Below are positions 369 to 51,006 of a stretch of 64,000 nucleotides of DNA, one piece after another. Numbering within the stretch: the stretch's first letter is position 1; each line of letters opens with the position of its first letter. The stretch spans positions 1 to 64,000 of the forward strand of contig JAMFSN010000309.1 of NCBI GenBank assembly GCA_026225295.1. Direction: 5' to 3'. The notes below the pieces were generated by a model. It saw nothing but the letters and a program-made list of their open reading frames with translations. It had not been told where the DNA came from and did no database searches. Position numbers and translations under genes: made by a program. This stretch comes from Frankia alni (GTDB lineage: Bacteria; Actinomycetota; Actinomycetes; Frankiales; Frankiaceae).

Positions 369-1362
369 TCATAGCCCAGAATTTCAGCTGGCCCGGCAGC
401 CGGCTACCCCCGCGACCCGTCCGATTACCGGACGGCGGCCCGGGCCCAACCGTCAATTCACCCACGCGACCGGGTCGCTCCCGAGTCGTCACGCCGTTGG
501 CTGGGCGCGGCACCCGCGCCTGCTGGGCGACCAGATCCCATTCGTCCGATGACAACGTCGTGGCCCAGGTCGGATCCGACGGCGCCGGCCCGGCCGATCC
601 GGCCGCTTCTGCCGTGCAACCGGACGTTCGCATAGCGACGGCCGCGTACAGGTCCGGGTCGAGGAGGAAGTGGGAATAGGATCTTCTTTCGCCCATCGGG
701 TGCCGAAGACTTCGTGTCACCGGTCGGCGGCAGGACGGGCGCTCACGATTCCCGCAGGGTTGCACAGCTCGTCCGCATCCGGGGTTCTGTGACACAGCGC
801 CACAGGAACAGGAACTGTGACCGAACGTCGATATCGACGCCGACTTCACGATTCAGAAAATCTTCTGGTGACCTGGCTGTCAACCTCTCCTCGCCGTGCT
901 GGCACTGGGGAGGGAAGCCGAAACCGGCAATCGTCCGGGGTTCGGATACTCGACCGGTGGGGTGAGCTGAGCCTTTCCCGTCGCGTTGCGAACGGGCCCG
1001 TCGACCACCCGCCCCGATCGCGCGTATTCACCTGGAAGGATGCATCGCGGATCTCCGGTCGTTGATCGCCGAAAACGGCTAAACCTCGCAAATCACCACA
1101 TCTTCTTCGGTGTGGCGACCGACAACGCCATCCGGATCGCGGATTCCGACAAAGATCGGAATGGTCCAGGTCTTCCCGACGGGCCGCACCCTGACCAGGT
1201 TCTGATGGCGACGTTGACATCGAGTTCGACATCACGCTAGCCTCCGCCCGCCACCGTGATCGTGTGCTGACGACCTGGCAACGCCCGAAAGGTCGACCGT
1301 CCTCGGACCACATCGCCTGGCCTGCAATACGCACCACTCCTGCCAGGAAGGAAATCAGAACG
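369..1362. other. About 1 kb without a recognisable gene
   Basis: Open frames here give arginine/serine-rich, low-complexity translations typical of non-coding high-GC DNA, and none has a family motif. The stretch does hold two TCGA-type hexamer arrays (827-850 and 1213-1236) and the promoter of the transporter operon at its right end. Together with the truncated hydrolase to its left, it looks like decayed DNA plus a long upstream regulatory region. Confidence 0.5.
1214..1243 (+). promoter_or_regulatory. Promoter of the Liv-type transporter operon
   Basis: A perfect -35 TTGACA (1214-1219) is followed after 18 nt by TAGCCT (1238-1243), which fits the actinobacterial TANNNT -10. This predicts a start of transcription near 1250 and a leader of about 115 nt before the GTG/ATG at 1363/1366. 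The -35 is embedded in a hexamer-phased array (GTTGAC-ATCGAG-TTCGAC-ATCACG, 1213-1236), so a regulator binding the array would cover the promoter. Confidence 0.5.
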
Positions 1363-2586
1363 GTGATGCCTCAATTACAGAAGGTGCTCCGAACGGTCTG
1401 CGCGGCCGCAGCCGTCGCATTGATCGTCGGAGCATGCTCGTCCGGCGGCTCGTCCGGAAGCACCGCCGCGAGCTCACAGCCGGGCGGTTCGCCGATCAAG
1501 ATCGGCGCGATCTGCAGCTGCTCGGGTGCGCTCAGCGCGGAGGGCACGGCGCTCGCCTACAAGGCCTGGGTCGAAACCACCAACGCGGCGGGCGGAATCA
1601 ACGGCCACCCCGTCCAGCTCACCCTTGATGACGATGCCGGAAATCCGGGGAAGTCCACCACGTTCGCGCACAGCCTGGTGTCGAAGCATGTGCTGGCCAT
1701 CGTCGACATCACCAATAACGACGAGACCTGGGCCTCGTACGTCGCGTCCGCGCATATCCCGGTGATCGGCGCGGGTACCTCCACGACGCCGATGTACACC
1801 AACCCGGACTTCTACAGTGAGGGTCAGACCGAGGACGCGTTGTTCCCCTCGGTCATCGAGTCGGCCAAGGCGGCTGGGGCGACGAACCTCGGGCTCATTT
1901 ACTGCGCCGAGGCTGTGCAGTGCCAGGAGGGCATTGCTCCCCTGAAGGCCATCGGCCAGAAACTTGGACTGCCGGTCGCCTACGCCGGCGAAGTGGCCGC
2001 CACCGCTCCGAACTACACCGCGCAATGCCTCGCCGCGCGCCAGAAGAACGTGAAGGCTCTGTTCGTCGCCGACGTGACCTTCGTTGCCGAGAAGGTGGCC
2101 GCCGACTGCGCGCAGCAGGGTTACCACCCGATCTACGTCGTCGACGGAGAAATCCTGTCGGACGGATTCCGGACCGCTCCCGGCATCAAGGACAATCTGA
2201 TCTCGCCGTCGCCGAACCTGCCGTACATCGCCGACGCGCCGGCTGTCACGGCCATGAACGCGGCCCTGGACAGGTACGCGCCCGGCCTGCGGACCTCGAC
2301 CACCAAGTACACCGAGTTCGCCAGCGAAGGCTGGGTGTCCGGACTCCTGTTCGGGGCCGCCGCCAAGGCCGGCCAGCTCGGCGCGGGCGGCAGCACCCCA
2401 ACCTCGGAACAGCTGGTCAAGGGTCTGACCGCCTTGCACGGCGAAACGCTCGGCGGGATGGCTCCCCCGCTGACGTTCGTGTCGGGAAAGGCCAATCCCG
2501 TCGACTGCTGGTTCGTCACGGCTCTGAAGAACGGGGTCTACAGCACACCGAACGGCCTCAAGCCCTCCTGCGTAAACAACGGCTAG
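1363..2586 (+). CDS. ABC transporter substrate-binding lipoprotein (LivK type) 1
   Basis: Periplasmic-binding-protein fold type I (Peripla_BP_6). It is predicted to be anchored outside the membrane by a lipidated Cys and to deliver ligand to the Liv-type transporter that follows. The signal peptide has a hydrophobic core and lipobox 'LIVGACSSG', then a Ser/Gly linker and the mature start 'IKIGAICSCSGALS'. Several cysteines in the mature part could form disulfides. The start is GTG 1363 or the adjacent in-frame ATG 1366, behind AGGAAGGAAA; the length of about 406 residues is normal. The ligand is unknown. Branched-chain amino acids are the family default, but the catabolic surroundings favour an organic or hydrophobic acid. 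Confidence 0.88.
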   Translation: MMPQLQKVLRTVCAAAAVALIVGACSSGGSSGSTAASSQPGGSPIKIGAICSCSGALSAEGTALAYKAWVETTNAAGGINGHPVQLTLDDDAGNPGKSTTFAHSLVSKHVLAIVDITNNDETWASYVASAHIPVIGAGTSTTPMYTNPDFYSEGQTEDALFPSVIESAKAAGATNLGLIYCAEAVQCQEGIAPLKAIGQKLGLPVAYAGEVAATAPNYTAQCLAARQKNVKALFVADVTFVAEKVAADCAQQGYHPIYVVDGEILSDGFRTAPGIKDNLISPSPNLPYIADAPAVTAMNAALDRYAPGLRTSTTKYTEFASEGWVSGLLFGAAAKAGQLGAGGSTPTSEQLVKGLTALHGETLGGMAPPLTFVSGKANPVDCWFVTALKNGVYSTPNGLKPSCVNNG

Positions 2587-2603
2587 CCACCCATTTAAGA
2601 TCG

Positions 2604-2640
2604 CGCCGGCCGTGGGGGAGGGACGCCCCCACGGCCGGCG
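2604..2640 (+). terminator. Strong GC hairpin between binding-protein and permease genes
   Basis: A perfect 15-bp inverted repeat (2604-2618 and 2626-2640) with a 7-nt loop lies 17 nt after the stop of the binding-protein gene and 29 nt before the permease GTG. There is no U-tract, so it is more likely an attenuator or an RNA 3'-end stabiliser than a full terminator. Such hairpins often let the binding protein be made in excess over membrane subunits; this role is inferred. Confidence 0.6.
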
Positions 2641-2669
2641 TCGAGACGCAGCTGGAATCGGAGCGTCGC

Positions 2670-5474: not shown

Positions 5475-5481
5475 GCGGCCG

Positions 5482-6177: not shown

Positions 6178-6245
6178 GCTGTGGCCGGCTAGGCTCACAC
6201 GACGGCCGGCGGCACCGCGCCGCTGGTACTGGGAGGAATACACCA

Positions 6246-8201: not shown

Positions 8202-8223
8202 GGCGACATAGTACCGATACTTG

Positions 8224-17792: not shown

Positions 17793-19034
17793 TTACTGGC
17801 TGACGCTCTGGCCGGTGGGAGCACCGCACACCGGGTCCGCGCCGGGGACGAGCTTGAAGTCCTTGCCGACCAACCTGGTGAAGTAGAGGCAGTTGTCCGC
17901 CCCACCTATGAGGTTCTCGCGGTCGTTGGTGTTATCCGGATGGTCGCCGTACAGGCCACCGGCGGTGAATGCCGTGATCTTGGACAAAGAGGTAATCAGA
18001 GAGGCCTGACTCGGATTCGAGCCCGCGCCCTTAAGGCCCTGCACCAGCAGCAGGACCGATGCGTATCCGTCGTATTCAGGGAGCGTGGGAACGGTGGTGA
18101 CGCCGACCTGGGCCAGCGCCGCCTGGAACGCCTTGGTGGCCGGGGTGTTCATCTGGACCGGCTCCATCTGCAGGGTGTAGTACACATTCTGCGCGGCGTC
18201 GAGGGCACCCGCGCCGGCCTGCAGGATGTCGGCGCCGTAGCCGATCGGGAGCACCGCCGCCTTCAGGTTTACGCCTTGCTGCCGCAGGGCGCTGATCAGT
18301 GCGTACGACGTGTTGGGGTCGACCTCGAGGGCGATCGCGTTCACACCGGCCTTCTTCATCGCGAGCGCCACCGGCTGTACGTCAGTACTGCCGAACGGGA
18401 ACTTCGCATTGACGTAGCCGGCCTTCAGTCCGGCCGCCTGCGCTGACAAGGCGGCGGTCTTCGCGGAATCAGCCGACGAAGGCGAGATGTTGTAGCCGAG
18501 CGACCCGACGTTCGTCGCACCAACGATCTTGAAGAACTTACCCACGGTCGTCGCGACCTTCTCGACGTGCAGGGCGCCGTAGACCGAGAACATGTTCTTG
18601 CTCGTGGTCCACTCCGGTCCGTCTTCGGCCGCGCCGACCACCGGGACGTGATGCGCGGTGAGGTAGGCGGAGGCGGCGAAGGTGAGCGCCGAATGTGCTA
18701 TGACCGCCGTCACGTGCTTCTGGGTCACCAGCTTCTGCGCACCGGACAGGGCCCCGGCGGGTGACGTGCCGGTGTCGGCGACGACGTACTTGATCGTGTA
18801 ACCGTCCTGGGCGGCCACGGTGACGCCGGCCTTGATGCCATTGATCACCGACTTGTTGCCGGACGCGGCCACACCCGTCAGATCGGTTAACACGCCCACC
18901 GTGTAGGTGGGCCGGCCCGAGGATCCCGAGGATCCTTTCGACCCGGACGAACCGCTGCTGCCGCAGGCGGCCGCCGTGGCCGCGGTGGCCATCACCGCCA
19001 GCGCCACAACGATCTTTGACCTGGTACCGCGCAT
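17793..19034 (-). CDS. ABC transporter substrate-binding lipoprotein 3
   Basis: Type I binding protein of 413 residues. The start 'MRGTRSKIVVALAVMATAA' gives a signal peptide with lipobox 'TAAACGSS' and a Ser/Gly/Lys linker, then 'YTVGVLTDLTGVAASGN'. ATG 19034 is behind GGTGGGAGAAG. It is the first gene of the minus-strand operon and has no permease or ATPase genes near it. It therefore probably feeds the transporter at 2670-6177 or one elsewhere. It is only distantly similar to the other three binding proteins. Confidence 0.87.
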   Translation of the reverse strand: MRGTRSKIVVALAVMATAATAAACGSSGSSGSKGSSGSSGRPTYTVGVLTDLTGVAASGNKSVINGIKAGVTVAAQDGYTIKYVVADTGTSPAGALSGAQKLVTQKHVTAVIAHSALTFAASAYLTAHHVPVVGAAEDGPEWTTSKNMFSVYGALHVEKVATTVGKFFKIVGATNVGSLGYNISPSSADSAKTAALSAQAAGLKAGYVNAKFPFGSTDVQPVALAMKKAGVNAIALEVDPNTSYALISALRQQGVNLKAAVLPIGYGADILQAGAGALDAAQNVYYTLQMEPVQMNTPATKAFQAALAQVGVTTVPTLPEYDGYASVLLLVQGLKGAGSNPSQASLITSLSKITAFTAGGLYGDHPDNTNDRENLIGGADNCLYFTRLVGKDFKLVPGADPVCGAPTGQSVSQ

Positions 19035-19307
19035 TCTTCTCCCACCCTCACAGGTTGCCGATGCCGACCGTCGGTCGGACCATCTCAACAGAGGTCGATG
19101 CAGGTCACCGCGGGTTCAGGCGGACGGCCGACCGCGGGGGCACGGCGGGCCTCCATGAGGGGTCGAACGCTGGCACTGGGCCAGGGCGATGTCAACCTCA
19201 ACGTCGAGTTTGAAAACAGGGGGGTTCCTCTTACGAGAGTCTCGTTCTACTGTGGCGCGACACGGCGGCTCTCCACAAGGCCGCGGCCAACGAGCGGGAG
19301 GTAGCTG
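19035..19307. promoter_or_regulatory. Divergent promoter region with palindrome and hexamer array
   Basis: This 273-nt gap separates the divergent binding-protein and CaiB operons. It contains the array GTCAAC-CTCAAC-GTCGAG-TTTGAA (19191-19214), a palindrome ACGAGA-G-TCTCGT (19233-19245) and a TANNNT box TACTGT (19248-19253) facing the CaiB operon. The palindrome abuts the -10 and could be the operator of the TetR encoded at the end of that operon (27849-28517). Confidence 0.45.
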
Positions 19308-28856: not shown

Positions 28857-28859
28857 GGG

Positions 28860-29175: not shown

Positions 29176-29335
29176 GGGGCGAGCACGTCGCCGCTGCTCC
29201 ATCCCTATTTCCTCAATGCTTTTGTCAAACCGTGAGACGTTTTCAATCACGCAGAATACCGATGTCGACACGCACGTCAAGCTTGGTCCGACCGCCCACC
29301 GGGGAAGCGCCCCGCACAGCGCTGACTGAACGGTT

Positions 29336-29368
29336 CGCCCGGGTCAACGTCAAACGTTGACCCGGGCG
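29336..29368. terminator. Perfect 15-bp palindromic hairpin
   Basis: CGCCCGGGTCAACGT and its exact reverse complement are separated by CAA. There is no T-tract on either side. It could be a bidirectional transcription-stop or RNA-end hairpin, or the binding site of a dimeric protein. It stands alone in DNA without genes, which makes its perfect conservation notable. Confidence 0.5.
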
Positions 29369-30060
29369 TTCGGCGCTGGAGACGCACCGGGGATCGTCGT
29401 GCATCACCCACTTCGCACATCCCCCGGCCTTGCGCCGCAACTCCTCGGCTCCCCTATCGATCTGCGCTGAAGCAACACGGGATCCTTGCCGCCGGCCGGG
29501 AGGCTGAGAGAACCACGGACCGGTCCGATGTCGACATCGATATCGAGGCAGCACTACACTCACGATTCCAGTACCTGGCCGGAACAGCACGTCGAGGTCC
29601 GCCAGACAGGAGTCGGCTGCGAACGCGAACGAGGGGATCGAGATGGCGCGCTGCTCCGCTCCCCGGCCGCGCCGAGCCGACGGGATTCATCTGGTCACCC
29701 GGCCGGCGTTCGCCGTTCGAACGCGAGTGGCAATCTTCGAGGTCAACCTGGGAATCAGCTGGGAGCCGAGCCCCACCGACCCGGTTCCCCTGAATGTACG
29801 GCCAGGTCACGCGACCTCTTCGAGGAGGGCGGTACAGCGGCTCAGGATCGGCACCCGTTCGTCACTACCGCCGTCGCCACGGGCACCGTCTCCTCCGGCG
29901 GCCGGAGTTCCTCAACCACCACGACGATCGGGACAACAGACGAGCTATTCGGCCGGCTGGCGCTACCCGTTTGGTGCCCCGTCTCTATGCCCTCAAGCCA
30001 CCCACAGATCACACTACTCACAACGGTCGTCCCCCACGACGCACCGAGAGGCCTACACCG

Positions 30061-31590: not shown

Positions 31591-34500
31591 ATGGCCGGTT
31601 GGTGCGAGGCTGACCAGGTGGTGCGGGGGGTGCGCGGTCCGGGCAAGGCTCTCGTGGGCCTCATGGTCCGTCGCGGACGGTCCCTACGGTGGGCTCCGCT
31701 GCTGGTGTGGGTGGTGGCGGCGGGGGTGGTGGGCGGTCTGCTGCTGGCGGAGGGACAGCTGAGCCTGGCCTCGGCGGAACGCGCCCGGGTGGAGCAGCGC
31801 GGGCATCTGGTCGAGCAGACCGCCGCGTATGCCTCAGTGACAGCCGACCCGGTCTTGACCCGCACGATCCTGGCCGCCGAGCCCCTGTCGCCGACCGACC
31901 CCGCCCTCGACACAACGTTGCTGGGGCTGAACAGTCAGACCCCCCAGGGCGATCCGATCATTTTGACCCAGATCCGCAACCGCTCGGGACGTCCGCTCGT
32001 AGCGGTGCCGCCGGGCCGGTCGGTGCCGATCACCGATCTCGGTCCGGCGTGGGAGGTGGCCCGGGCCGGCGGTTCCGCGCTGTCACCGGTGTTCCGCCTG
32101 AACGGCGCGGTGCGGCGAGCAGTGGTGGTCGCGCTCGGTCCGGCCGGCCGGACCTGGGGCGTGGCGGTGCAGGTCGCCGACGAGAAGGTCCCGCAAAGTT
32201 TCGACGAGAACCTCCAGGGACTCGGGGCATCACCGGGTGGCCAGTCTGATCTGGACCCCCGGGGGGTCGCGATCGTGTCGTGGGATCCGGCTCTGCGCGG
32301 GCGCCGGCTCGTCGAGCCGGCGCAGCTGACCGGGGTGCGGGCGGGGACCTTCGCGCACTGGACGAATGGAACGGGGAGCCACGAGGTCCTGACCGTCGCC
32401 ACACGGCAGGCCACGACGGGCTACTACACGATTTTCCAGCAACCGACCTCGGCGCTGTTTTCGGACCTGCGGGCCCGGCAACGGCTGGTGGATCTGCGGC
32501 TGTTGGCCGTATTGGGAGTCGGGCTCGGAGCGCTGCTGCTGTTCGGGGCGTGGCGGATGCGGACCGTCGCACACGCCCAGGCCCGCGTCCGCGCGCTGCT
32601 GCTGCACTCCCGGGACCTGATCCTCGTGGTGGGCTCGGACCGGACGATGACGTTCGTCAGCCCGGCCGTGGAGAAACTGCTTGGCTACCCGGCCCAGGAA
32701 TGGCGGGGACAACGGCTGTCTCAATTCGCCGACCCCGCGGACGACGGTCGGATCGCCGGCCTCATCGCGGGGAGCCCGCCCGGCCGGACCCGGGTGGAGC
32801 GGGACGTGCGACTGCGCAACGCCGACGGCACGCTGCGATGGTTCGATCTGGAGGCCAGCGACCTGCGCGACCGGTCCGAGATCGACGGGATCCTGGTCAC
32901 CGGCCACGAGATCGGCGCGCGCAAAACCCTGCAGGACCGGCTCGCCTACGAGGCCAGCCACGACCCGCTGACCGGCCTGGCGAACCGGGACGTCTTCGCC
33001 AACCGCCTGGAGACGGCACTGGAGTCCGCGAAACGGGCCGGCCCGGACGGGGCACCGGTAGCGGTACTGATGGTGGATCTGGACCTCTTCAAGTCCGTCA
33101 ACGACACCTGGGGTCATCCGGTCGGGGACCGGGTTCTGGAGGTCGTGACGGCCCGGTTGGCCTCGGCGGTGCGCCCGGGCGACCTGGTCGCCCGGTACGG
33201 CGGCGACGAATTCGCGGTTCTGCTACCCGCCACCACCGGGCCGCGGGCCCGCCTGATCGCGGACCGGATCCGCCGGGCGGTCCGGGCCCCGATCAGCATC
33301 GACAACCTCGTGCTAACGGTAGACGCGAGCCTCGGCATCGCCGTGTCCAGCGCCGCGGCCAACCACCCCGGTCAGCTCGTGCGCGCGGCCGACCAGGCCA
33401 TGTACCAGGCCAAGCAAGGCGGACGCACCCGCGCCGAAACCACATTCCCGGCAGGGCCGGAACCCACCGCACCACCAGCTCGAACCGCACCACCAGCCCG
33501 CACCCCGCCCACCCCGCCGCACCCAGCGTCCGCGGCCACCGCCCGACCGGAGCCCGGCGAGGCCGCACCGGCCCGCGCGACGTTAACCGGATCGACCCCG
33601 CCGGCCAACCGTCCGACCGGACCGGCGCACATCCAGGTGAACGGCACCGGACATTCACCCGAGCGGAGTTCGCGAGGGGTGAGCCGGTGGATTCCGCTGG
33701 TCGTTGCCGCCCTGGTCATCCTGGCTGTTGCCGCGGCCGGATCACAGGTGGTCAGTTCCGCGCAGACCTCCGCCGAACACAAGCGGATCGCCGAACGGAC
33801 CGCCCTGACCGCCCGGGTCGCCACCAACACCGTGGTCTCGGCCGGCCGGGTCCTCACTCCGGCGCTCAACAGCGTCCCCTGGTCGTTGACGAACGTCGCC
33901 CGCGACCGGGCCCTCCTGGGAATCCTCAAAGGTAATCCGAGCCTCGGCGTCGATCCGGTGGTCGCGCTCGCCCGCCTCGACGGCACGACCATCGCCCAGC
34001 TACCACCAGCGGCGAGGCTGCCACTCGGTCCTGGCGCCCCGGCCTGGACCGCTGCCCTGGCCGGAACCGCCGGACTCACCAACACCGTCTACAGCGTCGG
34101 CGCCTGGCGCGCGTATTACGCCGTCCCGATCCTGCGCGCCGGCCGGACCACCGCCGTCCTCGTCTTTGGCGTCGATCTCAGGACCATCTACGCCCAGGCG
34201 GCCTTCAAGGCGATCGGTGGCCTGGGTACCGGCCCCGGCGGCCTCGTCGATGTGGACCCGACCGGGCGGGCGAGTCTGGCCTGGAGTCCCGCTCTCATCG
34301 GGAGACCCGTCGTCCCGGCCGCCGACCTTCCCCCCGGCAACGACGCCCGGCGGATCTACCCGCCCCGTACCGCTGGCCTGGTCACCATCGCCGCGGCCGT
34401 TCCCGGGCCGGATCCCCGCCGGTATGTCGTGTTCCAGCAGCCGGCGTCCGTGCTGTTCCGAGACATCCGGGTGGGATGGCTGTCCCGCGACCTGGGTCTG

Positions 34501-35430
34501 TTCCTGATCGTCGCGCTCACCCTCGGCGCGCTGACCTTCCTGGACACCCGACGCGAGCGGACCGCCCGCCACGCCGAAGAACGCCTGACCGCCCTGCTGC
34601 ACAACGCCCACGACATCTTTGTCGTCATCGATGACGAGCGCGTCGCCTTCGTCAGCTCCGCCATCGACACTCTGCTGGGCTGGGACCCCGAGTCGCTGTT
34701 CAACGCGGACATCTCCACGCTCGTCCACCCCGACGACCTCGACCGGCTACGCGCCTTCGCCCGCACGGTCCGCCGGACCGGCTCCGACACCACCCGCGAC
34801 CTCCGCCTCCGGGCCACCGACGGGACCTACCGCTGGTTCGACCTCGACGCCACCGACCTGCACGCCAACCGCCGCATCCGGGGAACCCTGGCAACCTGCC
34901 ATGAAACCAGCGACCGCAAGCGCCTGTCCGACGAACTGACCTACCGAGCCGGCCACGACCCCCTCACCGACCTGGCCAACCGCGCCCATTTCACCCGCCG
35001 CCTCGACGCCGTCGCGGCGGCCGGCGACGTCGGCGAGCGGTTCGCCGTCCTGTTCGTCGACCTCGACAACTTCAAACCCGTCAACGACACCTACGGACAC
35101 GCGACCGGCGACGACGTCCTCCGCGTCCTTGGAAACCGCCTGCAGGCGGCGGGGCGCGGTGCCGACGTCGTCGCCCGCCTCGGCGGCGACGAGTTCGCCC
35201 TCATCCTGACCGAAACCGACGAAACCGACGCCCGCCGCGTCGCGAAACGCCTCCTCGACGTCATCCGCGAGCCCATCGCCGTCAGCGGCATCATCCTGCA
35301 CGTCGACGCCACCATCGGCGTCGCGATCGCCGCCGCCGGCCGCCAACCACCCGAAACCGTGGTCCGCGACGCCGATCGGGCCATGTACCAGGGCAAAGAA
35401 ACCGGCCGGGGCCGGTACATCATCGCCTGA
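31591..35430 (+). CDS. Tandem membrane sensor-PAS-GGDEF protein (double diguanylate cyclase)
   Basis: A 1279-residue protein made of two similar halves. Half 1: TM helix 34-54, extracytoplasmic sensor about 55-300, TM 302-320, PAS 330-445, GGDEF domain 450-612. A Pro-rich linker (618-690) joins half 2: TM 699-720, sensor, TM 967-985, PAS 995-1110, GGDEF domain 1112-1279. Both active sites are exact GGDEF (537-541 and 1198-1202), and both have the inhibitory RxxD I-site five residues upstream (RPGD 528-531, RGAD 1189-1192). The halves share 'FQQP' segments and 'RWFDL' PAS motifs. So both should make c-di-GMP under feedback control. No EAL domain. The start is uncertain: ATG 31591 has no clear ribosome site, and in-frame GTG 31621 is possible. 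Confidence 0.85.
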   Translation: MAGWCEADQVVRGVRGPGKALVGLMVRRGRSLRWAPLLVWVVAAGVVGGLLLAEGQLSLASAERARVEQRGHLVEQTAAYASVTADPVLTRTILAAEPLSPTDPALDTTLLGLNSQTPQGDPIILTQIRNRSGRPLVAVPPGRSVPITDLGPAWEVARAGGSALSPVFRLNGAVRRAVVVALGPAGRTWGVAVQVADEKVPQSFDENLQGLGASPGGQSDLDPRGVAIVSWDPALRGRRLVEPAQLTGVRAGTFAHWTNGTGSHEVLTVATRQATTGYYTIFQQPTSALFSDLRARQRLVDLRLLAVLGVGLGALLLFGAWRMRTVAHAQARVRALLLHSRDLILVVGSDRTMTFVSPAVEKLLGYPAQEWRGQRLSQFADPADDGRIAGLIAGSPPGRTRVERDVRLRNADGTLRWFDLEASDLRDRSEIDGILVTGHEIGARKTLQDRLAYEASHDPLTGLANRDVFANRLETALESAKRAGPDGAPVAVLMVDLDLFKSVNDTWGHPVGDRVLEVVTARLASAVRPGDLVARYGGDEFAVLLPATTGPRARLIADRIRRAVRAPISIDNLVLTVDASLGIAVSSAAANHPGQLVRAADQAMYQAKQGGRTRAETTFPAGPEPTAPPARTAPPARTPPTPPHPASAATARPEPGEAAPARATLTGSTPPANRPTGPAHIQVNGTGHSPERSSRGVSRWIPLVVAALVILAVAAAGSQVVSSAQTSAEHKRIAERTALTARVATNTVVSAGRVLTPALNSVPWSLTNVARDRALLGILKGNPSLGVDPVVALARLDGTTIAQLPPAARLPLGPGAPAWTAALAGTAGLTNTVYSVGAWRAYYAVPILRAGRTTAVLVFGVDLRTIYAQAAFKAIGGLGTGPGGLVDVDPTGRASLAWSPALIGRPVVPAADLPPGNDARRIYPPRTAGLVTIAAAVPGPDPRRYVVFQQPASVLFRDIRVGWLSRDLGLFLIVALTLGALTFLDTRRERTARHAEERLTALLHNAHDIFVVIDDERVAFVSSAIDTLLGWDPESLFNADISTLVHPDDLDRLRAFARTVRRTGSDTTRDLRLRATDGTYRWFDLDATDLHANRRIRGTLATCHETSDRKRLSDELTYRAGHDPLTDLANRAHFTRRLDAVAAAGDVGERFAVLFVDLDNFKPVNDTYGHATGDDVLRVLGNRLQAAGRGADVVARLGGDEFALILTETDETDARRVAKRLLDVIREPIAVSGIILHVDATIGVAIAAAGRQPPETVVRDADRAMYQGKETGRGRYIIA

Positions 35431-36863: not shown

Positions 36864-38078
36864 CTAACCGACGACGCCCTTGACCTTGAGATCCACGACC
36901 GCGTCCCAGTCGAAACCCAGTTCCGCGAGGATCGCGTCGCCATGTTCGTTCAGCTCGGGGGCCCGGCCCGGCGGGGCCGCTTCCTCGTCGAACTGGACCG
37001 GCGCGGCCACCAACTGGAACGGATTGCCGTTGGCCGCTTTCACGCCCTGGATATAGCCATTGGCCTGCGCCTGCGGATCCGCGGCGGTTTCCAGAGTGGT
37101 CTGCGCGACCGCCCACTGGCCGCTGAACTCACTCAGCCGCGAGCGCCACTCCTGGACCGTGCCCTGAGCGAATACCTCGCGCAGCAGCTCGGTGGCTTCG
37201 GCCGCGTGGGCGCTGATCGACGCGTGGTCGACGAAACGAGGATCGTCGACCAGTTCGGTCCGCCCGATGATCTGACACAGTTCCGACCAGTATCTGGTCA
37301 CCTGCAGGCAGGAGAATGAGAGGAACCGCCCGTCGCTGGTCCGGTAATTCGCGACCAGCGGATTGCCGGTCCGCCCACCGGGCGGTTGCCCCCAGGGGGT
37401 GTTCAGTTGCAGGGACAGTGCGATCCCCTGCCCCATGGACCACATACCCACGCCGAGCAGCGACACATCTACCGTGGTGGCCTGGCCGGTGCGCCCCCGG
37501 TGATAGAGGGCCCCCATGAGACCCCCGGCAATGGTCAGCGCGCCGATGGAGTCACCGAATCCGGGAGCGGGCGGAAAGAGCAGGCCCTCCGCCTCCGGCT
37601 CCTGGAGGGCCATCGCGATGCCGGCCCGGCTCCAGAACGACAGGAAGTCGTACGATCCGCGGTCGGCATCCGGGCCCCGCTCCCCCTGCCCGATCCCGCG
37701 GGCGTAGATGATGTCGGGATTGTGCGCCCGAATGTCGTCGACGTCGATCTTCAATTTGCTGCGGACACTGGGCAGTTTGTTGGTCAGGAAGATGTCGCTG
37801 GTCTTGACCAGCTGGTAAAGGATGTCCAGGCCTTCCTCCGACCGCAGGTCGAGAGCCAGACTCTTCTTGCCGCGGTTGGAGTGCTCGAGAAGGACGTGCA
37901 CGCCTCCCGCGATCGGGGCGGTGCCGGTCGACGCGAGACCTCGCATCGCGTCGCCGCGCTCCACGTGCTCGATCTTGATGACCTCCGCGCCCCAGTCGGC
38001 GAGCAGTGCCGAGGCCGCGGGGACGAAGGTGTGCTCGGCCACCTCGAGGATGCGAACGCCTTCCATTACTGCTGTCAT
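36864..38078 (-). CDS. CaiB/BaiF-family CoA transferase 2
   Basis: A 404-residue class III CoA-transferase starting 'MTAVMEGVRILEVAEHTFVP' with a GGGAGGA box. Family blocks 'ASALLADWGAEVIKIEHVERGD', 'NRGKKSLALDLRSEEG', 'GSYDFLSFWSRAG' (catalytic Asp region) and 'TTVDVSLLGVGMWSMGQG' are present. It is a paralogue of the gene at 19308 and paired with the thiolase. The upstream 196-nt gap holds a promoter and a hexamer array. Confidence 0.9.
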   Translation of the reverse strand: MTAVMEGVRILEVAEHTFVPAASALLADWGAEVIKIEHVERGDAMRGLASTGTAPIAGGVHVLLEHSNRGKKSLALDLRSEEGLDILYQLVKTSDIFLTNKLPSVRSKLKIDVDDIRAHNPDIIYARGIGQGERGPDADRGSYDFLSFWSRAGIAMALQEPEAEGLLFPPAPGFGDSIGALTIAGGLMGALYHRGRTGQATTVDVSLLGVGMWSMGQGIALSLQLNTPWGQPPGGRTGNPLVANYRTSDGRFLSFSCLQVTRYWSELCQIIGRTELVDDPRFVDHASISAHAAEATELLREVFAQGTVQEWRSRLSEFSGQWAVAQTTLETAADPQAQANGYIQGVKAANGNPFQLVAAPVQFDEEAAPPGRAPELNEHGDAILAELGFDWDAVVDLKVKGVVG

Positions 38079-38195
38079 GCCGTCCTCCCGCGTCGCGTGG
38101 TGATCGATGACATCTCGGCGGACCGGCGGCGACCAGTACGTTCGCGATCCGCGATCGTCGCGTCGCTCAGGGGCCACGACCTCACCAAACACCAA

Positions 38196-38251
38196 GTCGA
38201 CGTCGACCTCGATATTGATTTGACCTTAACGGTGGCGTGGATCGGTGGCAA
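38196..38251 (-). promoter_or_regulatory. Promoter of the CaiB-thiolase unit with adjacent hexamer array
   Basis: On the minus strand, TTGCCA (38251-38246) and TAAGGT (38228-38223) are 17 nt apart, a reasonable sigma-70-type promoter for the CaiB gene. The array GTCGAC-GTCGAC-CTCGAT-ATTGAT-TTGACC (38196-38225 on the plus strand) starts in the -10 and covers the transcription start, an ideal place for a repressor. Confidence 0.45.
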
Positions 38252-38274: not shown

Positions 38275-39033
38275 CTACGCCGGCCCGTCGTTGCCCGGGT
38301 ATGGCGGTGGTTCCTCCTTCATGCCGAGCGCGTTCGCCCACAGAATGGTGAGCTGCTCCACCGCCTCGTCGAAGTCGTAGTCGCGATAGCCCTGGACCAA
38401 CCAGAGTTCCGCGAAACGGGCGACCATCGCGCCCAGGGCGTCGGCGGCCAGGGGCGGGTCGAGACGCCGGTCCACGGCTCCCTGTGCCTGCAGCTGCCGG
38501 ATCCCTCGTTCGGCCCGTTCGACGAAATGCTTCATCGTCGCCATACGGGCCGCATTTACCGGCCCGTCGTATCGCGAGACCCCCTCGATCACGCCCATGA
38601 TCGCGGCTTCGTCGCGGTAACGCCCGAGATACCGGCGGTTCGCCCTCCGGATGCGCTCCCAGGCGGTGTCCCGCGGCCCACCGTGGGTCGATCCGTGCTC
38701 AGGCGGCGCGGTCAGACGTTCCTCCTGCGCCGCCGCGACTTCCCGGAACAGCTGTTCCTTGGATTCGAAGTAGTGGTAAAAGGTGCCCAGCGCGATGTCC
38801 GCGGTTTCGGTGATGTCCGCGATTCTGGATTCGAGGAAACCGTCGCGCTCGAACACAATCTTGGCCGCGTTGATCAGGCGGCTCCGCGTCTGCGCGCCCT
38901 TACGCGAACGAGGGCCGCCGGCCCGGGATGCCGGGGTCCCGGGCACGGTCGTTCCGGACACGGTCGTTCGGGCGCCGGCCCGCGTCGGGCCGGCCGGCTC
39001 AGACGAGCGGGATGTCGAGGAGGTCACAGGCAT
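38275..39033 (-). CDS. TetR-family transcriptional regulator
   Basis: A 252-residue repressor. HTH 'LINAAKIVFERDGFLESRIADITETADIALGTF' with recognition part 'YHYFESKEQLFREV'; C-terminal domain 'GAMVARFAELWLVQGY'. ATG 39033 overlaps the 3' end of the upstream amidohydrolase gene by 35 nt. The first 45 residues are a low-complexity Ser/Thr/Gly segment, and a start further in is possible. It probably controls the neighbouring CaiB-thiolase unit and/or amidohydrolase. Confidence 0.8.
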   Translation of the reverse strand: MPVTSSTSRSSEPAGPTRAGARTTVSGTTVPGTPASRAGGPRSRKGAQTRSRLINAAKIVFERDGFLESRIADITETADIALGTFYHYFESKEQLFREVAAAQEERLTAPPEHGSTHGGPRDTAWERIRRANRRYLGRYRDEAAIMGVIEGVSRYDGPVNAARMATMKHFVERAERGIRQLQAQGAVDRRLDPPLAADALGAMVARFAELWLVQGYRDYDFDEAVEQLTILWANALGMKEEPPPYPGNDGPA

Positions 39034-40189
39034 TCTCTCGGGCGATCTTCTGGACGTCCTGGTCGGGCAGCTTCGCCAGCGAGTCGGTCACGAAGTCGGC
39101 CGGCGCGCGGGTGCCTTCGGCGTGCGGCCAGTCCGAGCCGAGCAGCAGGCGGTCGACCCGGGCGTCGGCGGCGATTTCGTCAATGCGGTCCTCCCAGAAC
39201 GGAGTGATCCAGACGTGCTCGCCGAAGACGGCCCGCGGTTCGTCCCTGAAGTACCCCGGATTCCGGTTGGCGGCATCGTCCAGGCGGTGGAGGAGGTCGG
39301 CGACCCACGAGGCGCCGTTTTCGACGCTGGCCAACCGGAGGCCGGGAAAGCGCTCGAAGATCTTGTGACACAGCGCCGCCGCATAGAAGTCGCTGACCGC
39401 GCGGGCCTTCGTCACGATGCCCCGCAGCGGGGAGCGGAACAGGGCACTCTCCCCCGCGCCGGGCTCCCACATCTGGACCAGCGCGTCGTAGCCGTCGACG
39501 CCCGCGTGGGTGGCCACGGGTACGCGGGATTCGGCGGCCAGTCCCCAGAAGCGGTCGTAGACCGGATCGAACGGTGAGCGGTACCCGCCGGGCACCGGGA
39601 CCGGGGCATTCCTGACGTTCACCGCCACCGCGCCGGCGTCGAGCACCCGCTGCAGTTCGGCGACGGCCACCTCCGGATCAAGAAGTGAAACATACGGCAC
39701 GGCAAACAGTCGGCCCTGGTAGCGGTAGCCCCAGTCCTCCGCAAGCCAGCGATTGAAGGCTCGGAAAACCTCGCCGCAGGCCGTGGGATCGTGCTGGAGC
39801 GCGGCTTCGATGCCGACGCCGAGCGTCGGGAACAGCAGTGCGGCGGCGACCCCCTGCCCGTCCATGACCGTCAGCCGGGCATCGCGGTCCCGGTACTCGG
39901 GCCGTATCGGTTCCAGGTCACCGAAGGCCTCGGTGATGCCCTGCCGGCCGGGATTCCCGCGATACCAGTCGAACAGCGCGCCGGGCCGCGCGACCGGGTC
40001 GAACGTGGGGTTGGCGATGTAGGAGTTGACCGTCCCCCCGACGAGAAGGCGGCGACGGCCGTTGACCTCCGCCCACTGGACACCCCGGCCGCGCAGCGAC
40101 CGGTCCTGGTACCGCGTGAAGGCGTCGTCCGCCTCGTAGTAGTGGTTGTCGAAGTCGAAGATCCACGGTTGGGGCGGTTGCTCCGGCAC
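38999..40189 (-). CDS. Amidohydrolase-2 family metal-dependent hydrolase/decarboxylase 3
   Basis: A 396-residue TIM-barrel hydrolase. The first metal motif 'DFDNHYYEADDAFTRY' (12-27) and late 'LLLGSDWPHAEG' match the gene at 10065-11282, its paralogue. GTG 40189 is chosen because GGAGGG lies 7 nt upstream; the longer frame reads through the divergent promoter. Divergent from a FadE pair, with which it may share regulation by the array at 40254-40283. Substrate unknown. Confidence 0.84.
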   Translation of the reverse strand: MPEQPPQPWIFDFDNHYYEADDAFTRYQDRSLRGRGVQWAEVNGRRRLLVGGTVNSYIANPTFDPVARPGALFDWYRGNPGRQGITEAFGDLEPIRPEYRDRDARLTVMDGQGVAAALLFPTLGVGIEAALQHDPTACGEVFRAFNRWLAEDWGYRYQGRLFAVPYVSLLDPEVAVAELQRVLDAGAVAVNVRNAPVPVPGGYRSPFDPVYDRFWGLAAESRVPVATHAGVDGYDALVQMWEPGAGESALFRSPLRGIVTKARAVSDFYAAALCHKIFERFPGLRLASVENGASWVADLLHRLDDAANRNPGYFRDEPRAVFGEHVWITPFWEDRIDEIAADARVDRLLLGSDWPHAEGTRAPADFVTDSLAKLPDQDVQKIARENACDLLDIPLV

Positions 40190-40248: not shown

Positions 40249-40283
40249 AGACTATCGAAATCGAGTCCGAAGTCGAGAATTCG
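40249..40283 (-). promoter_or_regulatory. Promoter and hexamer array between amidohydrolase and FadE genes
   Basis: On the plus strand the array reads ATCGAA-ATCGAG-TCCGAA-GTCGAG-AATTCG (40254-40283). Read on the minus strand it supplies CTCGAC (40277-40272) and, after 17 nt, TAGTCT (40254-40249), a plausible promoter for the amidohydrolase gene. A nearby ACGCTAGC (40227-40234) is also found beside the array upstream of the transporter operon (1234-1241). Confidence 0.4.
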
Positions 40284-40295: not shown

Positions 40296-41312
40296 CTGAG
40301 CACCACCGACGACGACATCGACCAGCTCCGGTCCGCCCTGCGGGGAGCGCTCGGCACCGCCAAGGCGAGCGGGACGCCGGCCCCCGACGGCGACTGGCGG
40401 CGCGGCTGGCCGGGCCTCGCCGATCTCGGCGTCACCGGGTTCTGCGTACCCGAGAACCGGGGGGGCTTCGGCCTGCGGATCGACGCCGCGGTCGCGACGG
40501 CCGTGGAGTTCGGCGCCGTGCTCCACGGCGCACCCTATGCCGGGCTGACGACCAGTGCCCACGCCTTGGCGGCCGCGCCGGACGACGGCGCCGCCGCCCA
40601 CCTCCTGGCCGGCATCCTGACCGGCGAACGCATCTGCGCCCTGGGGCTCGCCGGTCCTGATGCCCGCGTCGCCCGGCTCATCGACGGCGCGGCCCGGGCA
40701 GACGCGCTGCTCCTGGTCGACCGCTACTCCTCCGCCCTGACGCTCTTCCCGGATCGGCACGGCTGGAGCGCCGAGCCGGCGCGGGACGACTTCGACGTCA
40801 GCCGAACCTGTTCCACCGTCACCGTTGACCGCGGGGAAGGTCATCGCCTCGCGACCGACGGCCGCGCCTTCGGGCTGTACCGCCTTCTTCTCGCGGCCGA
40901 CGCCGTGGGCTGCGTACAAACCGTGCTGGACCGAACCGTCGCGTACAGCGCCCAGCGTCACGCGTTCGGCCGTCCGATCGGCGGCTTCCAGGCGGTCCAG
41001 CACCGCCTCGTCGATCACACCGTGCGCGCCCGGGGGATGGCCCTCGCGGTCGCCGAAGCGGCCCGGTCGCTGTCTTCTGAGGATGGGCCCCGGGCGGCGC
41101 GATCCGTCGCGGTCGCCGGGGTGAGCGTGAACTCCGCCGCCACGCACATCATTCACGACCTGCTGCAACTCACCGGAGCGATCGGCTTCACCTGGGAGTA
41201 CGGCCTGCATTTCCACGAACGCCGCGCCCACCAGGACGCCCGGCTGGCCGGGAATCCCCGGGCCGCCCTACGGTCGCTCGCCGAGCTCGAGGAGTGGACC
41301 CGTGCCCGCTGA
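40296..41312 (+). CDS. Acyl-CoA dehydrogenase, short (beta-type) subunit; apparent CTG start
   Basis: A FadE-family protein of about 338 residues, partner of the next gene. The C-terminal half has 'QTVLDRTVAYSAQRHAFGRP' followed by 'IGGFQAVQHRLVDH' and 'QLTGAIGFTWEYGLHF', typical of these subunits. The FAD-binding 'SEPxxGSD' motif is absent, as in the degenerate subunits of ChsE1-ChsE2-type heterotetramers. The conserved N-terminus ('WPGLADLGVTGFCVPENRGG') lies upstream of the first ATG/GTG/TTG. The only fitting initiation is CTG 40296 ('STTDDDIDQLRSAL'), 6 nt after GGGAG. GTG 40503 would delete the N-domain. Confidence 0.82.
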   Translation: MSTTDDDIDQLRSALRGALGTAKASGTPAPDGDWRRGWPGLADLGVTGFCVPENRGGFGLRIDAAVATAVEFGAVLHGAPYAGLTTSAHALAAAPDDGAAAHLLAGILTGERICALGLAGPDARVARLIDGAARADALLLVDRYSSALTLFPDRHGWSAEPARDDFDVSRTCSTVTVDRGEGHRLATDGRAFGLYRLLLAADAVGCVQTVLDRTVAYSAQRHAFGRPIGGFQAVQHRLVDHTVRARGMALAVAEAARSLSSEDGPRAARSVAVAGVSVNSAATHIIHDLLQLTGAIGFTWEYGLHFHERRAHQDARLAGNPRAALRSLAELEEWTRAR

Positions 41313-44140: not shown

Positions 44141-44154
44141 CTGCTCACCCACCG

Positions 44155-44943
44155 TCAGACCGACCCCGCGCGCTGCAGCATCTTCCGCAGATTGCCCCGG
44201 AAGGCGGGCTCGTCGAAGGACGCCGATTCGCGGTCGAGCGCGCCCGCCAGCAGCGACCCGACCGCCTGGTGCAGCGCGTTGTTGAGCAGCGCCTTGGTCT
44301 CGGTCACCGCCTGCGGCGGCAGGACCGCGAGGCGGTTGGCCAGCTCGAGGGCCACGGTCAGGGACTGGCCCCGGGGGACGACCCGGTTGGCCAGGCCCAG
44401 TCGCAACGCCTCGTCGGCCGGCAGCCGGTCGCCGAGCAGGATGAACTCCTTGGCGCGCAGCAGGCTGGTCAGCAGGGGCCAGGTCAGCGCCCCGCCGTCG
44501 GCGGCCACCAGACCCAACGCCACGTGCGGGTCGGCGAAGTAGGCCTGTTCTTCGATGACCACCAGGTCGCTCATGGCCGCGAGGCTGCACCCGAGACCGA
44601 CCGCCGGGCCGTTGACGGCCGCGACGATGGGGACGCGTACCGAGGTCATGCCCCGCACGATGTCCGCCGCCTCGCTCATGATCTCGTCCCGCAGGTCCAC
44701 GTCCCGGACCATCCGGTCGAGCAGGCCGAGATCGCCCCCGGCCGAGAAGGCCTTCCCCGACCCGGTGAGGACGACCGCCCGGATGTCGGGGGCCGCGGCA
44801 AGCTCCGGCCACAGCCGGGCCAGGGAGCGGTGCAGCGTCTCGTCGGCCGCGTTGAACGCCTCCGGTCGGTTCAAGGTCACGACCCGGACCGGGCCCCGGT
44901 CCTCCACCAGCACCGGGCCGCTCACCCGCGGGTCATCGACCAT
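44155..44943 (-). CDS. Enoyl-CoA hydratase/isomerase family protein 1
   Basis: A 262-residue crotonase-fold protein. The oxyanion-hole parts 'FSAGGDLGLLDRM' and 'GPAVGLGCSLAAMSD' are recognisable. The two catalytic Glu of true hydratases are not obvious: the second region reads 'DPHVALGLVAADGG' where hydratases have 'PE'. It may therefore be an isomerase, hydrolase or other crotonase-fold enzyme. ATG 44943 is behind GAGGAG; divergent from a FadE pair. Confidence 0.83.
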   Translation of the reverse strand: MVDDPRVSGPVLVEDRGPVRVVTLNRPEAFNAADETLHRSLARLWPELAAAPDIRAVVLTGSGKAFSAGGDLGLLDRMVRDVDLRDEIMSEAADIVRGMTSVRVPIVAAVNGPAVGLGCSLAAMSDLVVIEEQAYFADPHVALGLVAADGGALTWPLLTSLLRAKEFILLGDRLPADEALRLGLANRVVPRGQSLTVALELANRLAVLPPQAVTETKALLNNALHQAVGSLLAGALDRESASFDEPAFRGNLRKMLQRAGSV

Positions 44944-44983
44944 GACACTCCTCTATTCATGTGAACGGTGCGAACCTTCAACA

Positions 44984-45012
44984 TTGCGTCGACCTTCGCA
45001 TCCTTCTATGTT
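44984..45012 (+). promoter_or_regulatory. Promoter giving a probable leaderless FadE mRNA
   Basis: TTGCGT (44984-44989) and TATGTT (45007-45012) are separated by exactly 17 nt. The expected transcription start, 7-8 nt later, coincides with ATG 45020, and no ribosome-binding site precedes it. A hexamer array (GTTGAC-GTCAAT-GTCGCA, 45010-45027) covers the -10 and the start codon. The opposite strand carries TTGAAG-N17-GAATAG for the divergent hydratase gene. Confidence 0.45.
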
Positions 45013-45019
45013 GACGTCA

Positions 45020-46198
45020 ATGTCGCACTTCGTGAGCCCTGAAGATCCTCTTCGTGACGACCAGCCGGCGTACGCGGCGGCGTTCGAGGGGTGGCTGGCC
45101 GCCGGGCCGGCCGCCTTTCGGGATGCCGCGCGGCCGATCGTCTCATCCGAACGGCGCGCGGCCGCCACCCGCGAGCTGATGCGGACCTTGTTCGACGACG
45201 GGTGGTCCCGGTACGGGTGGCCCACGCCGGCGGGCGGGCTCGGAGGCGACATCATGCACCGGGCCGCGATGTGGGAGGCCCTGGCCCGCCACGGTCTTCC
45301 CACGATGGCGATGTTCGAACACCTCGAGATCCTGGCCCCCACCCTCGTCGCCATGGGTCGACCCGCGTTTGTCGCCCAGGTGCTGCCGACGTTCCTGCGT
45401 GGGCAGGAATGCTGGTCACAGGGGTTCTCCGAACCGGATGCCGGCTCGGACCTGGCCAGCCTGCGCACCCGGGCCGTCCCGATCGACGGCGGCCACGTCA
45501 TCACCGGCCGGAAGATCTGGACGAGCTGGGCCGGCTACGCGCGCTGGTGCCTCGTGCTGGCCCGGACCGGAAGCGTCGAGGACCGCCACCGGGGTCTGAC
45601 CGCGTTCGCGGTCGACCTGCGCTCCCCGGGCGTCGAGGTCCGGGCGATCGGACAGGCCAACGGCACCGACGAACTGGCCGAGGTCACCTTCGACGGCGTG
45701 CCGGTCGGGCCCGACCGGGTCATCGGCGACCTCGGCGGGGGCTGGCGGGTCGCGATGCACATCCTGAGCCACGAGCGGGGAACGTTCGCCTGGTTCCGGC
45801 ACTGTCTCCTGCAGGGGTACCTGTCCGGGGCCCTCGAGACGGGGTCGCCGGCCGGCGCGCCGGAGTTCGGGTCGCCGGCCGGTGACGGGGCCCTGGGACA
45901 GGCCGTGCTCGACCTGGCCGCCGTCCGGGCCGCCAGCTACGCGGGTCTGCGCGCGCAGGCCGCCGACGCGCCGCTCGGCGTCCGGGCCCCGTTCGTGAAG
46001 CTGCTCCTGTGCGCCGCTGAGCGCTCGCTCAACGACTGGGTCCTGGAGAGCGATCCGACCCTCGCGCTCGGCGTCGGTGACGACCACGCCGCGGTGGCCT
46101 GGCAGGAATACCTGTTCTCCCGCATCGTCACCGTCTACGGGGGGTCCCAGCAGATGCAGCTCGACACCATCGCCAAACAAGTTCTGCGACTGCCGTGA
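45020..46198 (+). CDS. Acyl-CoA dehydrogenase, FAD-binding subunit
   Basis: A 392-residue FadE protein with 'GFSEPDAGSDLASLRT', 'GRKIWTSWAGYARWCLVLART' and the end 'VYGGSQQMQLDTIAKQVLRLP'. ATG 45020 gives 'MSHFVSPEDPLRDD'; a second in-frame ATG at 45008 lies inside the -10. It forms the second FadE pair with the next gene, again with a 4-nt overlap. A Gly/Ser/Pro insertion ('GSPAGAPEFGSPAGDG') in the C-terminal helical domain is unusual. Confidence 0.88.
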   Translation: MSHFVSPEDPLRDDQPAYAAAFEGWLAAGPAAFRDAARPIVSSERRAAATRELMRTLFDDGWSRYGWPTPAGGLGGDIMHRAAMWEALARHGLPTMAMFEHLEILAPTLVAMGRPAFVAQVLPTFLRGQECWSQGFSEPDAGSDLASLRTRAVPIDGGHVITGRKIWTSWAGYARWCLVLARTGSVEDRHRGLTAFAVDLRSPGVEVRAIGQANGTDELAEVTFDGVPVGPDRVIGDLGGGWRVAMHILSHERGTFAWFRHCLLQGYLSGALETGSPAGAPEFGSPAGDGALGQAVLDLAAVRAASYAGLRAQAADAPLGVRAPFVKLLLCAAERSLNDWVLESDPTLALGVGDDHAAVAWQEYLFSRIVTVYGGSQQMQLDTIAKQVLRLP

Positions 46199-47193: not shown

Positions 47194-47228
47194 CCCAGCT
47201 GCTCGGCAGGTAGGGGATCACCACGACC

Positions 47229-49678: not shown

Positions 49679-49782
49679 CTAAGGCTCCCACTCCTTTCCA
49701 CACCCGTGATCGGCTCCACTGGTGACCGGCCTCGGCGGTGAGCCCAGCCGACCCCGGCCACGAGCACCGTGTCCAGCATTCT

Positions 49783-49833
49783 CCTGAGGCAGTCCGGCTC
49801 CTAAGGCACTCCGGCGCCTAAGGCACTCCGGCG
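49783..49833. repeat. Three tandem 17-nt copies spanning a stop codon
   Basis: Two identical 17-nt units (49800-49816, 49817-49833; unit begins CCTAAGGCAC) and a third degenerate copy (49783-49799, 14 of 17 matching). The unit contains the last codons and the stop of the SMP-30 gene. Because 17 is not a multiple of three, the duplication does not extend the protein. Confidence 0.75.
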
Positions 49834-50669
49834 CCGGGTACGCGGACCCGCACCGTCCCGATCGTCGAGGTGCGGGCGCCGTCCAGGTTCGAGGCGCTCC
49901 AGTCGGTCGCGGACAACAGGAAGAGGGTCCGGCGGTCCTCTCCCCCGAGGGCGCAGGCGATGGCCATCTGCTCGCCGGTGGGGATCCGGTCGCTGATCTC
50001 CCCGCCCGGCAGAACCCGCCGGAACTCGTGCGCGAGCGGGAAACCGGCCCAGATGCCGCCTTCCGCGTCAAGGGCGATCCCGTCCGGAGCCGCGTCCGGG
50101 GTGGTCGCCACGACGCGCCGGCCGCCGAGGTTCATGCGGCTGTCGATGTCGAACGCCGTGAACCGGCGGCCTTTGGATTCGGCCACGATGAGGGTGCGGC
50201 CGTCCGGCGAGATCACCGAACCATTCGGAAAGTCCAGGCCGTCGGCCGCAACCGCGGTTGCACCGTCCGGCGCGACCCGCAGGAGCAGCCCGGCGCCCGG
50301 TTCCGTGTTGTAGCTGCCGACAAAGGCGGTGCCGCCCGGCGTGACGACCATGTCGTTCAGCTCGTCGGGGACCAGGTGGTCCAGCCGGGCGTGGACCGAG
50401 GACGACCCGTCGGGGCCCAGGCGCAGCAGCGCCCGGTCGGCCATCGAGACGATCAGGACGGAACCATCCGGAAGGAAGCCGAGGCCCGAGGGTTTCTGGC
50501 CGGGCAGCTCCAGCACCCGGACGGTCTCGCCGAGCAGGGTCGTCGTGTAGACCGCCTCGCCGTGCATGTCCGAGAACCAGAGCTTTCCGTTCCGCCAGCG
50601 CGGGCCCTCCGCAAAAACGAACCCCTCAGCAAGGAACGAGGGGCGGGTTCCCGGCTCGAGCACGGTCAT
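49818..50669 (-). CDS. SMP-30/gluconolactonase family protein
   Basis: A 283-residue six-bladed beta-propeller. The metal-binding Glu is in 'FAEGPRWRNGKLWFSD', followed by 'PSGLGFLPDGSVLIV', 'ELNDMVVTPGGTAFVGSYN' and 'FPNGSVISPDGRTLIVAE' (Asn ligand) and 'PDGIALDAEGGIWAG' (Asp ligand). It would hydrolyse a lactone, such as one formed after Baeyer-Villiger or hydroxy-acid chemistry. ACAGGAGG precedes ATG 50669. It probably leads the unit with the third FadE pair. Confidence 0.9.
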   Translation of the reverse strand: MTVLEPGTRPSFLAEGFVFAEGPRWRNGKLWFSDMHGEAVYTTTLLGETVRVLELPGQKPSGLGFLPDGSVLIVSMADRALLRLGPDGSSSVHARLDHLVPDELNDMVVTPGGTAFVGSYNTEPGAGLLLRVAPDGATAVAADGLDFPNGSVISPDGRTLIVAESKGRRFTAFDIDSRMNLGGRRVVATTPDAAPDGIALDAEGGIWAGFPLAHEFRRVLPGGEISDRIPTGEQMAIACALGGEDRRTLFLLSATDWSASNLDGARTSTIGTVRVRVPGAGVP

Positions 50670-51006
50670 CTCTGCCTCCTGTCCAGCGGGTGCAAGCCGT
50701 ACCGGTCGTTCGGAGGGACGGGCCGGTCCTCGCACCGGTCCGCCGGTCCGCCGGGCCGCGCCCCACCGCGGGCCGCGCAGTGCCCACCAACGCCGGCCCG
50801 GGCCCCGAAAGCCCGGCTCACCAAGGCCGGGTGCGCCCGGCCCCCGCGGTCAGGACCACCCCGATCCACGGATCCGTGAGCGCATGATGGGCGAAGATGA
50901 CGTCGACGTCAAGATCGCGCCCAGGGTGCCGGTCCCCGTGCTCCATCGCCACCTCCGGGCGGCCACACCGAGGGCACCCACCGCCGGCTCGCCCGCCCGA
51001 CGAGGT
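50670..51006. other. 337-nt gap without a gene
   Basis: The region is very GC-rich and its translations are Pro/Arg-rich with no family motif. Its one distinct element is a perfect 14-bp palindrome, TGACGTCGACGTCA (50898-50911), related to the hexamer arrays elsewhere and located upstream of the lactonase gene. Confidence 0.5.
50898..50911. promoter_or_regulatory. Perfect 14-bp palindrome TGACGTCGACGTCA
   Basis: Self-complementary over its full length, about 230 nt upstream of the lactonase start and 95 nt past the TetR stop. It combines the TGACGTCA and GTCGAC elements seen in the arrays upstream of other operons. A candidate regulator site. Confidence 0.4.

Follow-up and report, generated by a model that had tools for sequence, protein, structure and literature searches.

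Hexamer arrays in the intergenic DNA of a Frankia alni contig

The window analysed here is a 64,000-nucleotide stretch of Frankia alni DNA (assembly GCA_026225295.1, contig JAMFSN010000309.1, hereafter C403, positions 1 to 64,000 of the forward strand). Its intergenic regions carry short arrays of head-to-tail hexamers of the form NTYRAN, treated here as candidate operators, which lie beside genes for binding proteins, CaiB-type CoA-transferases, other putative acyl-CoA enzymes and TetR regulators. An earlier note on this DNA had listed nine such strings, and all nine are present. Eight of them were recovered by an independent matrix trained on 97 sites, all from other genomes. These eight are exactly the intergenic sites in the window that score above the listing threshold of 12 bits, and no further ones were found beyond the nine. 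The remaining string, 29264-29287, scores 9.7 bits and was rejected as an operator.

Two sites, 825-850 (24.1 bits) and 1205-1236 (26.5 bits), are located upstream of the binding-protein gene 1384-2586(+), the first leaving a long leader and the second followed by the -10-like sequence ACGCTAGCCT. Three others fall between divergent genes: 19189-19214 (27.1 bits) between the binding-protein gene 17793-19034(-) and the CaiB-type CoA-transferase gene 19308-20516(+), the weak site 40252-40283 (16.0 bits) between the amidohydrolase gene 38999-40189(-) and the acyl-CoA dehydrogenase gene 40503-41312(+), and 45008-45029 (23.0 bits) between the enoyl-CoA hydratase-like gene 44155-44943(-) and a gene starting near 45020(+). 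The last of these overlaps the predicted start near 45020, and the orthologous arrangement is present in L059. The best site of the window, 38194-38225 (32.3 bits), lies between the TetR gene 38275-38946(-) and the CaiB-type gene 36864-38066(-). Site 50894-50915 (19.9 bits) is upstream of gene 49818-50669(-) and 103 bp downstream of the TetR gene 51007-51609(-), and site 29528-29549 (26.1 bits) lies inside a gene-poor stretch (28857-30405).

To separate coding from intergenic DNA, genes in the window were called with a home-made codon-usage gene finder, which leaves 7.2 kb as intergenic. In this fraction, TYRA pairs occur 16 times at a lag of 6 (z 17), nine times at a lag of 12 and five times at a lag of 18, compared to a dinucleotide-shuffled mean of 0.8 in each case. 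There are 6 triple NTYRAN runs, versus 0.015 in shuffled sequence, and none in the 56.7 kb of coding DNA in the window. The matrix is expected from shuffles to score above 15 bits at 0.027 positions in the window, compared to the 8 sites observed. The density is far above that of both shuffled intergenic DNA and coding DNA, so the equal density that the earlier note had named as a refutation was not found.

Architecture of the operator

The hexamer unit TYRA is its own reverse complement and, because of this, an array is a direct repeat and a palindrome simultaneously. Across 115 sites, TYRA units are present at positions -6, 0, and +6 in 89%, 92%, and 92%, respectively, at -12 and +12 in about 30%, and at -18 and +18 in 2% to 3%. 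Four ANNT units at -9, -3, +3, and +9 are intact in 79%, 97%, 92%, and 83% of these sites, with a sharp drop outside. The symmetrised profile of 45 non-redundant sites has one dyad centre and fades after about 14 bp; taken together, the site sets place the limit of conservation at about 12 to 14 bp on each side. With a fixed centre and fixed ends, the operator is therefore a bounded palindrome of 22 to 28 bp, AATRTYRAYRTCGAYRTYRAYATT, with four ANNT half-sites exactly 6 bp apart, and not an open-ended array.

Started from random words in 89 kb of intergenic DNA, motif discovery by expectation maximization (EM) gave this motif as its first result, in dyad-symmetric form; the DNA had been fetched around arrays, so the search had no knowledge of the pattern, although its input regions had been selected. 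An unconstrained version of EM drifted to the general 3-base periodicity and was replaced by one with a fixed number of sites and an order-3 background. The earlier note had read the arrays as direct repeats rather than a TetR palindrome, which the self-complementarity of the hexamers and the concentration of information within about 14 bp of a single dyad do not support. More generally, self-complementarity of the unit can make a palindromic operator pass for a direct repeat. The four half-sites form two overlapping palindromes, as in operators of the QacR/DarR type, with ANNT units present in 79% to 97% of sites. This layout is compatible with cooperative binding of two dimers to the putative operator.

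Distribution and conservation

Genome-wide statements are based on pattern searches and fetched stretches. Counts of exact patterns across genomes mislead when taken alone, since coding repeats of the Val-Asp type match as well, and a covariance-model scan, also mixed with coding matches, served only to locate islands. The fourfold pattern occurs at nine places in the 5.78-Mb genome, six of them on C403 (148,844 bp), compared to none for a reversed control pattern. Past the window, C403 has sites at 67156, 67279, 69355, 73002, 75459, 79251, 103640, and 108447, and no intergenic sites beyond 108.5 kb. Elsewhere in the genome, the fetched stretches add 13 intergenic sites scoring 15 bits or more, several of them next to genes named, from sequence likeness, as amidohydrolase-like, P450-like, short-chain-dehydrogenase-like and binding-protein-like. 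About 29 intergenic sites have been seen in this genome so far.

The same intergenic arrays are present beside similar genes in related genomes, and operator islands were read in further genera of the Frankiaceae. Over all fetched islands, which were selected for having matches, 116 sites of at least 18 bits are intergenic and 10 are coding (0.65 versus 0.014 per kb). Three genomes share an identical 24-nt operator block in the thiolase promoter while the flanks have diverged. Comparison of a second promoter across genera shows operator changes that are mainly C/T and G/A, so that TYRA is preserved. Lack of conservation in orthologous promoters had been put forward as a way to refute an operator; the operator is instead kept while its flanks diverge. 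As judged from these sequences, the putative operator is common to the Frankiaceae and present in other actinobacteria.

Target genes and promoter layout

The sums given in this section treat orthologous promoters as separate counts. Among the first genes after a site, Amidohydro_2 is found in 26 of 132 versus 3 of 127 (P 6e-6) and Peripla_BP_6 in 13 versus 3 (P 0.02). The other first genes encode acyl-CoA ligases and dehydrogenases, luciferase-like monooxygenases, short-chain dehydrogenases (SDR), thiolase, P450 and TetR; these families are frequent throughout the islands. The earlier proposal of a regulon-wide operator preceding catabolic genes of the acyl-CoA type is supported.

The median distance from site to start codon is 117 bp. 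TANNNT hexamers, oriented by target, pile up 15 to 28 bp downstream of the dyad, and their peaks place a TYRAC unit 17 to 18 bp before them. The words GGCTA and GCTAG are enriched about 4.5-fold within 15 to 45 bp of sites and probably represent the -10 region. A sequence described earlier as shared between two sites, ACGCTAGC, occurs 22 times in the genome and is no special repeat; it was rejected as a separate element, being one form of this -10-like GGCTA/GCTAG set. The simplest reading of the layout is that the predicted operator covers the -35 region and the spacer.

A TetR subfamily as the candidate regulator

The TetR gene 38275-38946(-), with a GTG start at 38946 assigned by inspection and the nearest operator 71 bp off, belongs to a sequence group here called class A and is the candidate repressor in the window. 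Its product has a TetR_N helix-turn-helix (E 2.5e-11; 43.6 bits, cut-off 24). An AlphaFold2 model (pLDDT 86) has nine helices in an all-helical TetR fold with a ligand/dimer domain, and in the PDB it matches TetR proteins best, the nearest folds being those of a Rhodococcus TetR, EthR, FasR, Bacillus FadR and archaeal FadR. No NCBIfam equivalog, including those of KstR, FadR and FasR, reaches its cut-off, the best being a ScbR-type model (57 bits versus 150).

All 11 class A members from the first islands (four genera) have a site within 36 to 794 bp, as is typical of TetR proteins with a palindromic operator near their own and neighbouring genes. Class A genes lie at a median of 157 bp from a site; for the 25 other TetR genes, the median is 3.3 kb (Mann-Whitney P 6e-6). 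Class A is present in 20 of 35 genomes of the family; stretch C40 of the F. alni genome likewise has both operator site(s) and a class A TetR. Exact 22-bp matches are intergenic in 0 of 20 cases in four Frankiaceae genomes lacking class A, versus 14 of 21 in two genomes that have it (Fisher P 4e-6; one of the 14 is counted twice where two fetched stretches overlap).

This association extends to other families. Around class A relatives fetched from named genomes, the matrix trained on Frankiaceae found 39 sites versus 0.0 in shuffled sequence at 50% identity or more, often 60 to 260 bp upstream of the TetR gene, 24 versus 0.15 at 43% to 49% identity, and 17 versus 0.35 below 43%. Loci with sites include those of Streptomyces, Nocardia, Gordonia, Actinomadura, Blastococcus, Pseudonocardia, Geodermatophilus and Acidimicrobiia. 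For Pseudonocardia and Geodermatophilus, the matched TetR gene has the site about 85 to 260 bp upstream of it, and the neighbouring genes are unlike those of the Frankiaceae islands. A de novo search of the non-Frankiaceae loci alone returned ATTGACGTCGACGTCAATAT. On the TetR tree, presence of the operator is clustered (12 changes versus 19.4 in shuffles, with 0 of 500 as low). Class A TetR is most likely the regulator, judging by its proximity to sites, its autoregulatory position and the pattern of presence and absence. The earlier note had suggested an oligomerising regulator, and the bounded palindrome disfavours an open-ended, polymerising version of it.

The islands also contain TetR genes of two groups apart from class A (51007-51609 in the window, and 76724-77362 and 90504-91166 on C403). 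Two of the three have no operator within 1 kb and may use sites of their own.

Proposed mode of action and alternatives

We consider it probable that the arrays are operators of class A TetR repressors, which would control islands of the acyl-CoA/beta-oxidation type through two dimers bound over the -35 region and spacer and released by a ligand. The analysis establishes the motif, with its bounds, distribution, conservation and association with TetR and catabolic genes; direct binding, the stoichiometry, repression rather than activation, and a ligand are inferred. Two dimers are proposed because of the spacing of the half-sites. One dimer would contact the half-sites at -9 and +3 and the second those at -3 and +9, with 12 bp between the half-sites within a dimer. 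The dimer centres would be 6 bp apart and hence on nearly opposite faces of the DNA, an arrangement that would account for the centre of the operator being its most conserved part. Together, the two bound dimers could block RNA polymerase at acyl-CoA catabolic promoters, where the TYRAC unit may itself act as the -35 element, and an acyl-CoA-like intermediate of the pathway may release the repressor. Class A repressors would thereby control catabolic islands and often their own genes. A broader proposal, put forward tentatively and with somewhat less than even confidence, is that a TetR subfamily whose members range from Frankiaceae to Acidimicrobiia recognises an operator with 6-bp periodicity and four alike half-sites, on which two dimers interlock at a 6-bp offset, and that several paralogous repressors per genome use this one operator code, coordinating many catabolic promoters and islands.

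Several observations weigh against class A TetR repressors acting in this way. The site nearest to the class A gene in the window lies downstream of it, towards the CaiB gene, rather than in its promoter. The islands are home to several class A paralogs as well as to other TetR families, which makes the pairing of paralog to site ambiguous, and the co-occurrence could partly reflect whole islands in which class A and the target genes travel together. An extra TYRA unit is present at one end in about one-third of sites, so that some arrays extend past the core.

Alternatively, class A TetR might bind as one dimer only, centred on the TCGA dyad and using the outer TYRA units as its half-sites, in which case the 6-bp phase would simply follow from the palindrome. 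A single palindrome is what most TetR proteins bind, the spacing of the outer TYRA units is 12 bp and the dyad is well defined; however, the central TCGA, which such a dimer would leave between its half-sites, is the best-conserved element, and a full third unit goes unexplained, so we regard a single dimer as possible but unlikely. It is improbable that the operator belongs to another island regulator, of a different TetR group or another family, travelling with class A. While several other TetR genes are present in the islands and island genes co-occur, only class A is consistently adjacent to sites, and the motif accompanies it in loci of other families whose neighbouring genes differ. A regulator that polymerises along head-to-tail hexamers, as first suggested for this DNA, would fit the exact 6-bp phase and the runs of 3 to 6 units but appears very improbable, since the sequence is palindromic and units become rare with distance from a fixed centre (from about 90% occupancy to about 30% at 12 bp and 2% to 3% at 18 bp); the open-ended pattern with no fixed centre that such a protein would require was not found. 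An origin in chance, or in the hexamer periodicity of coding sequence (Val/Ile-Asp) in a GC-rich genome, has a negligible probability. Coding DNA does yield such strings (20 of 20 exact matches are coding in the four genomes lacking class A), but this reading is already refuted for the eight supported sites, which are intergenic, far more frequent than in shuffled or coding DNA, and kept between genomes while their flanks diverge.

Comparison with known regulators

TetR control of acyl-CoA catabolism is already known. FadR of Sulfolobus acidocaldarius (FadRSa) is a TetR repressor of a 30-kb beta-oxidation cluster whose DNA binding is weakened by acyl-CoA (PMC6449355). Like the operator described here, its motif is dyad-symmetric; it binds with two stoichiometries, the larger being two dimers in a QacR-like manner (PMC6449355), and it is near the class A model in the fold search. 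FadRSa differs in being archaeal and in having a 16-bp motif of another kind with only four genomic sites, and the parts of the report consulted do not report half-sites in 6-bp phase (PMC6449355). DarR of mycobacteria and rhodococci, and QacR, bind as TetR dimers of dimers to overlapping palindromes with four half-sites per operator (PMC10636190). The DarR operator is ATACT(N)4AGTAT and DarR senses c-di-AMP, whereas class A is another sequence group with a binding mode that is only inferred.

EthR, FasR and Bacillus FadR are the best-characterised fold neighbours of the class A model. EthR reaches a TM score of 0.73 (query length) at about 17% identity; sequence identity of class A to this group is low and the likeness is one of fold. 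The EthR operator has TYRA words at another spacing. EthR binds its own operator cooperatively as an octamer (PMC5403819). KstR and KstR2, which govern the actinobacterial steroid and fatty-acid regulons, resemble the proposed system in TetR control of CoA-ester catabolism with many targets. On the KstR model, whose cut-off is 280, class A proteins score 20 to 27 bits in the three cases listed. The operators of KstR are different palindromes. RptR uses tandem short palindromes (TAGCTA) over the core promoter, two intact copies of which suffice for repression (PMC12255303). It differs in its 9-bp repeat units and in its targets, which are restriction-modification islands.

In the literature searched, with most subscription journals outside it, no description was found of the class A subfamily, its operator or its regulon, and nothing relevant turned up on the operator strings, on a Frankia TetR regulon or on TetR hexameric repeats. 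From sequence alone, an operator code can be paired with its likely regulator across several actinobacterial families, and a large putative acyl-CoA catabolic regulon of the Frankiaceae is defined. This offers a route to the pathway inducer and to how TetR dimers may interlock on DNA with a 6-bp phase.

Other features of the window

The array at 19189-19214 has an identical inverted copy (22 nt) at 73002-73027 of C403, and each copy precedes a paralogous substrate-binding-protein gene (17793-19034(-) and 73182-74423(+)), suggesting a duplicated promoter-gene unit. A 92-aa open reading frame (ORF) at 28578-28856, with a LuxR-type GerE domain only, precedes the gene-poor stretch that runs to 30405 and may be a gene remnant. 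In the binding-protein ORF at 30406-31302, the Peripla_BP_6 match begins at profile position 69, and this gene is probably truncated at its start or frameshifted. The 1270-aa protein encoded at 31618-35430 has two GGDEF and two PAS stretches and is apparently an internally duplicated diguanylate cyclase.

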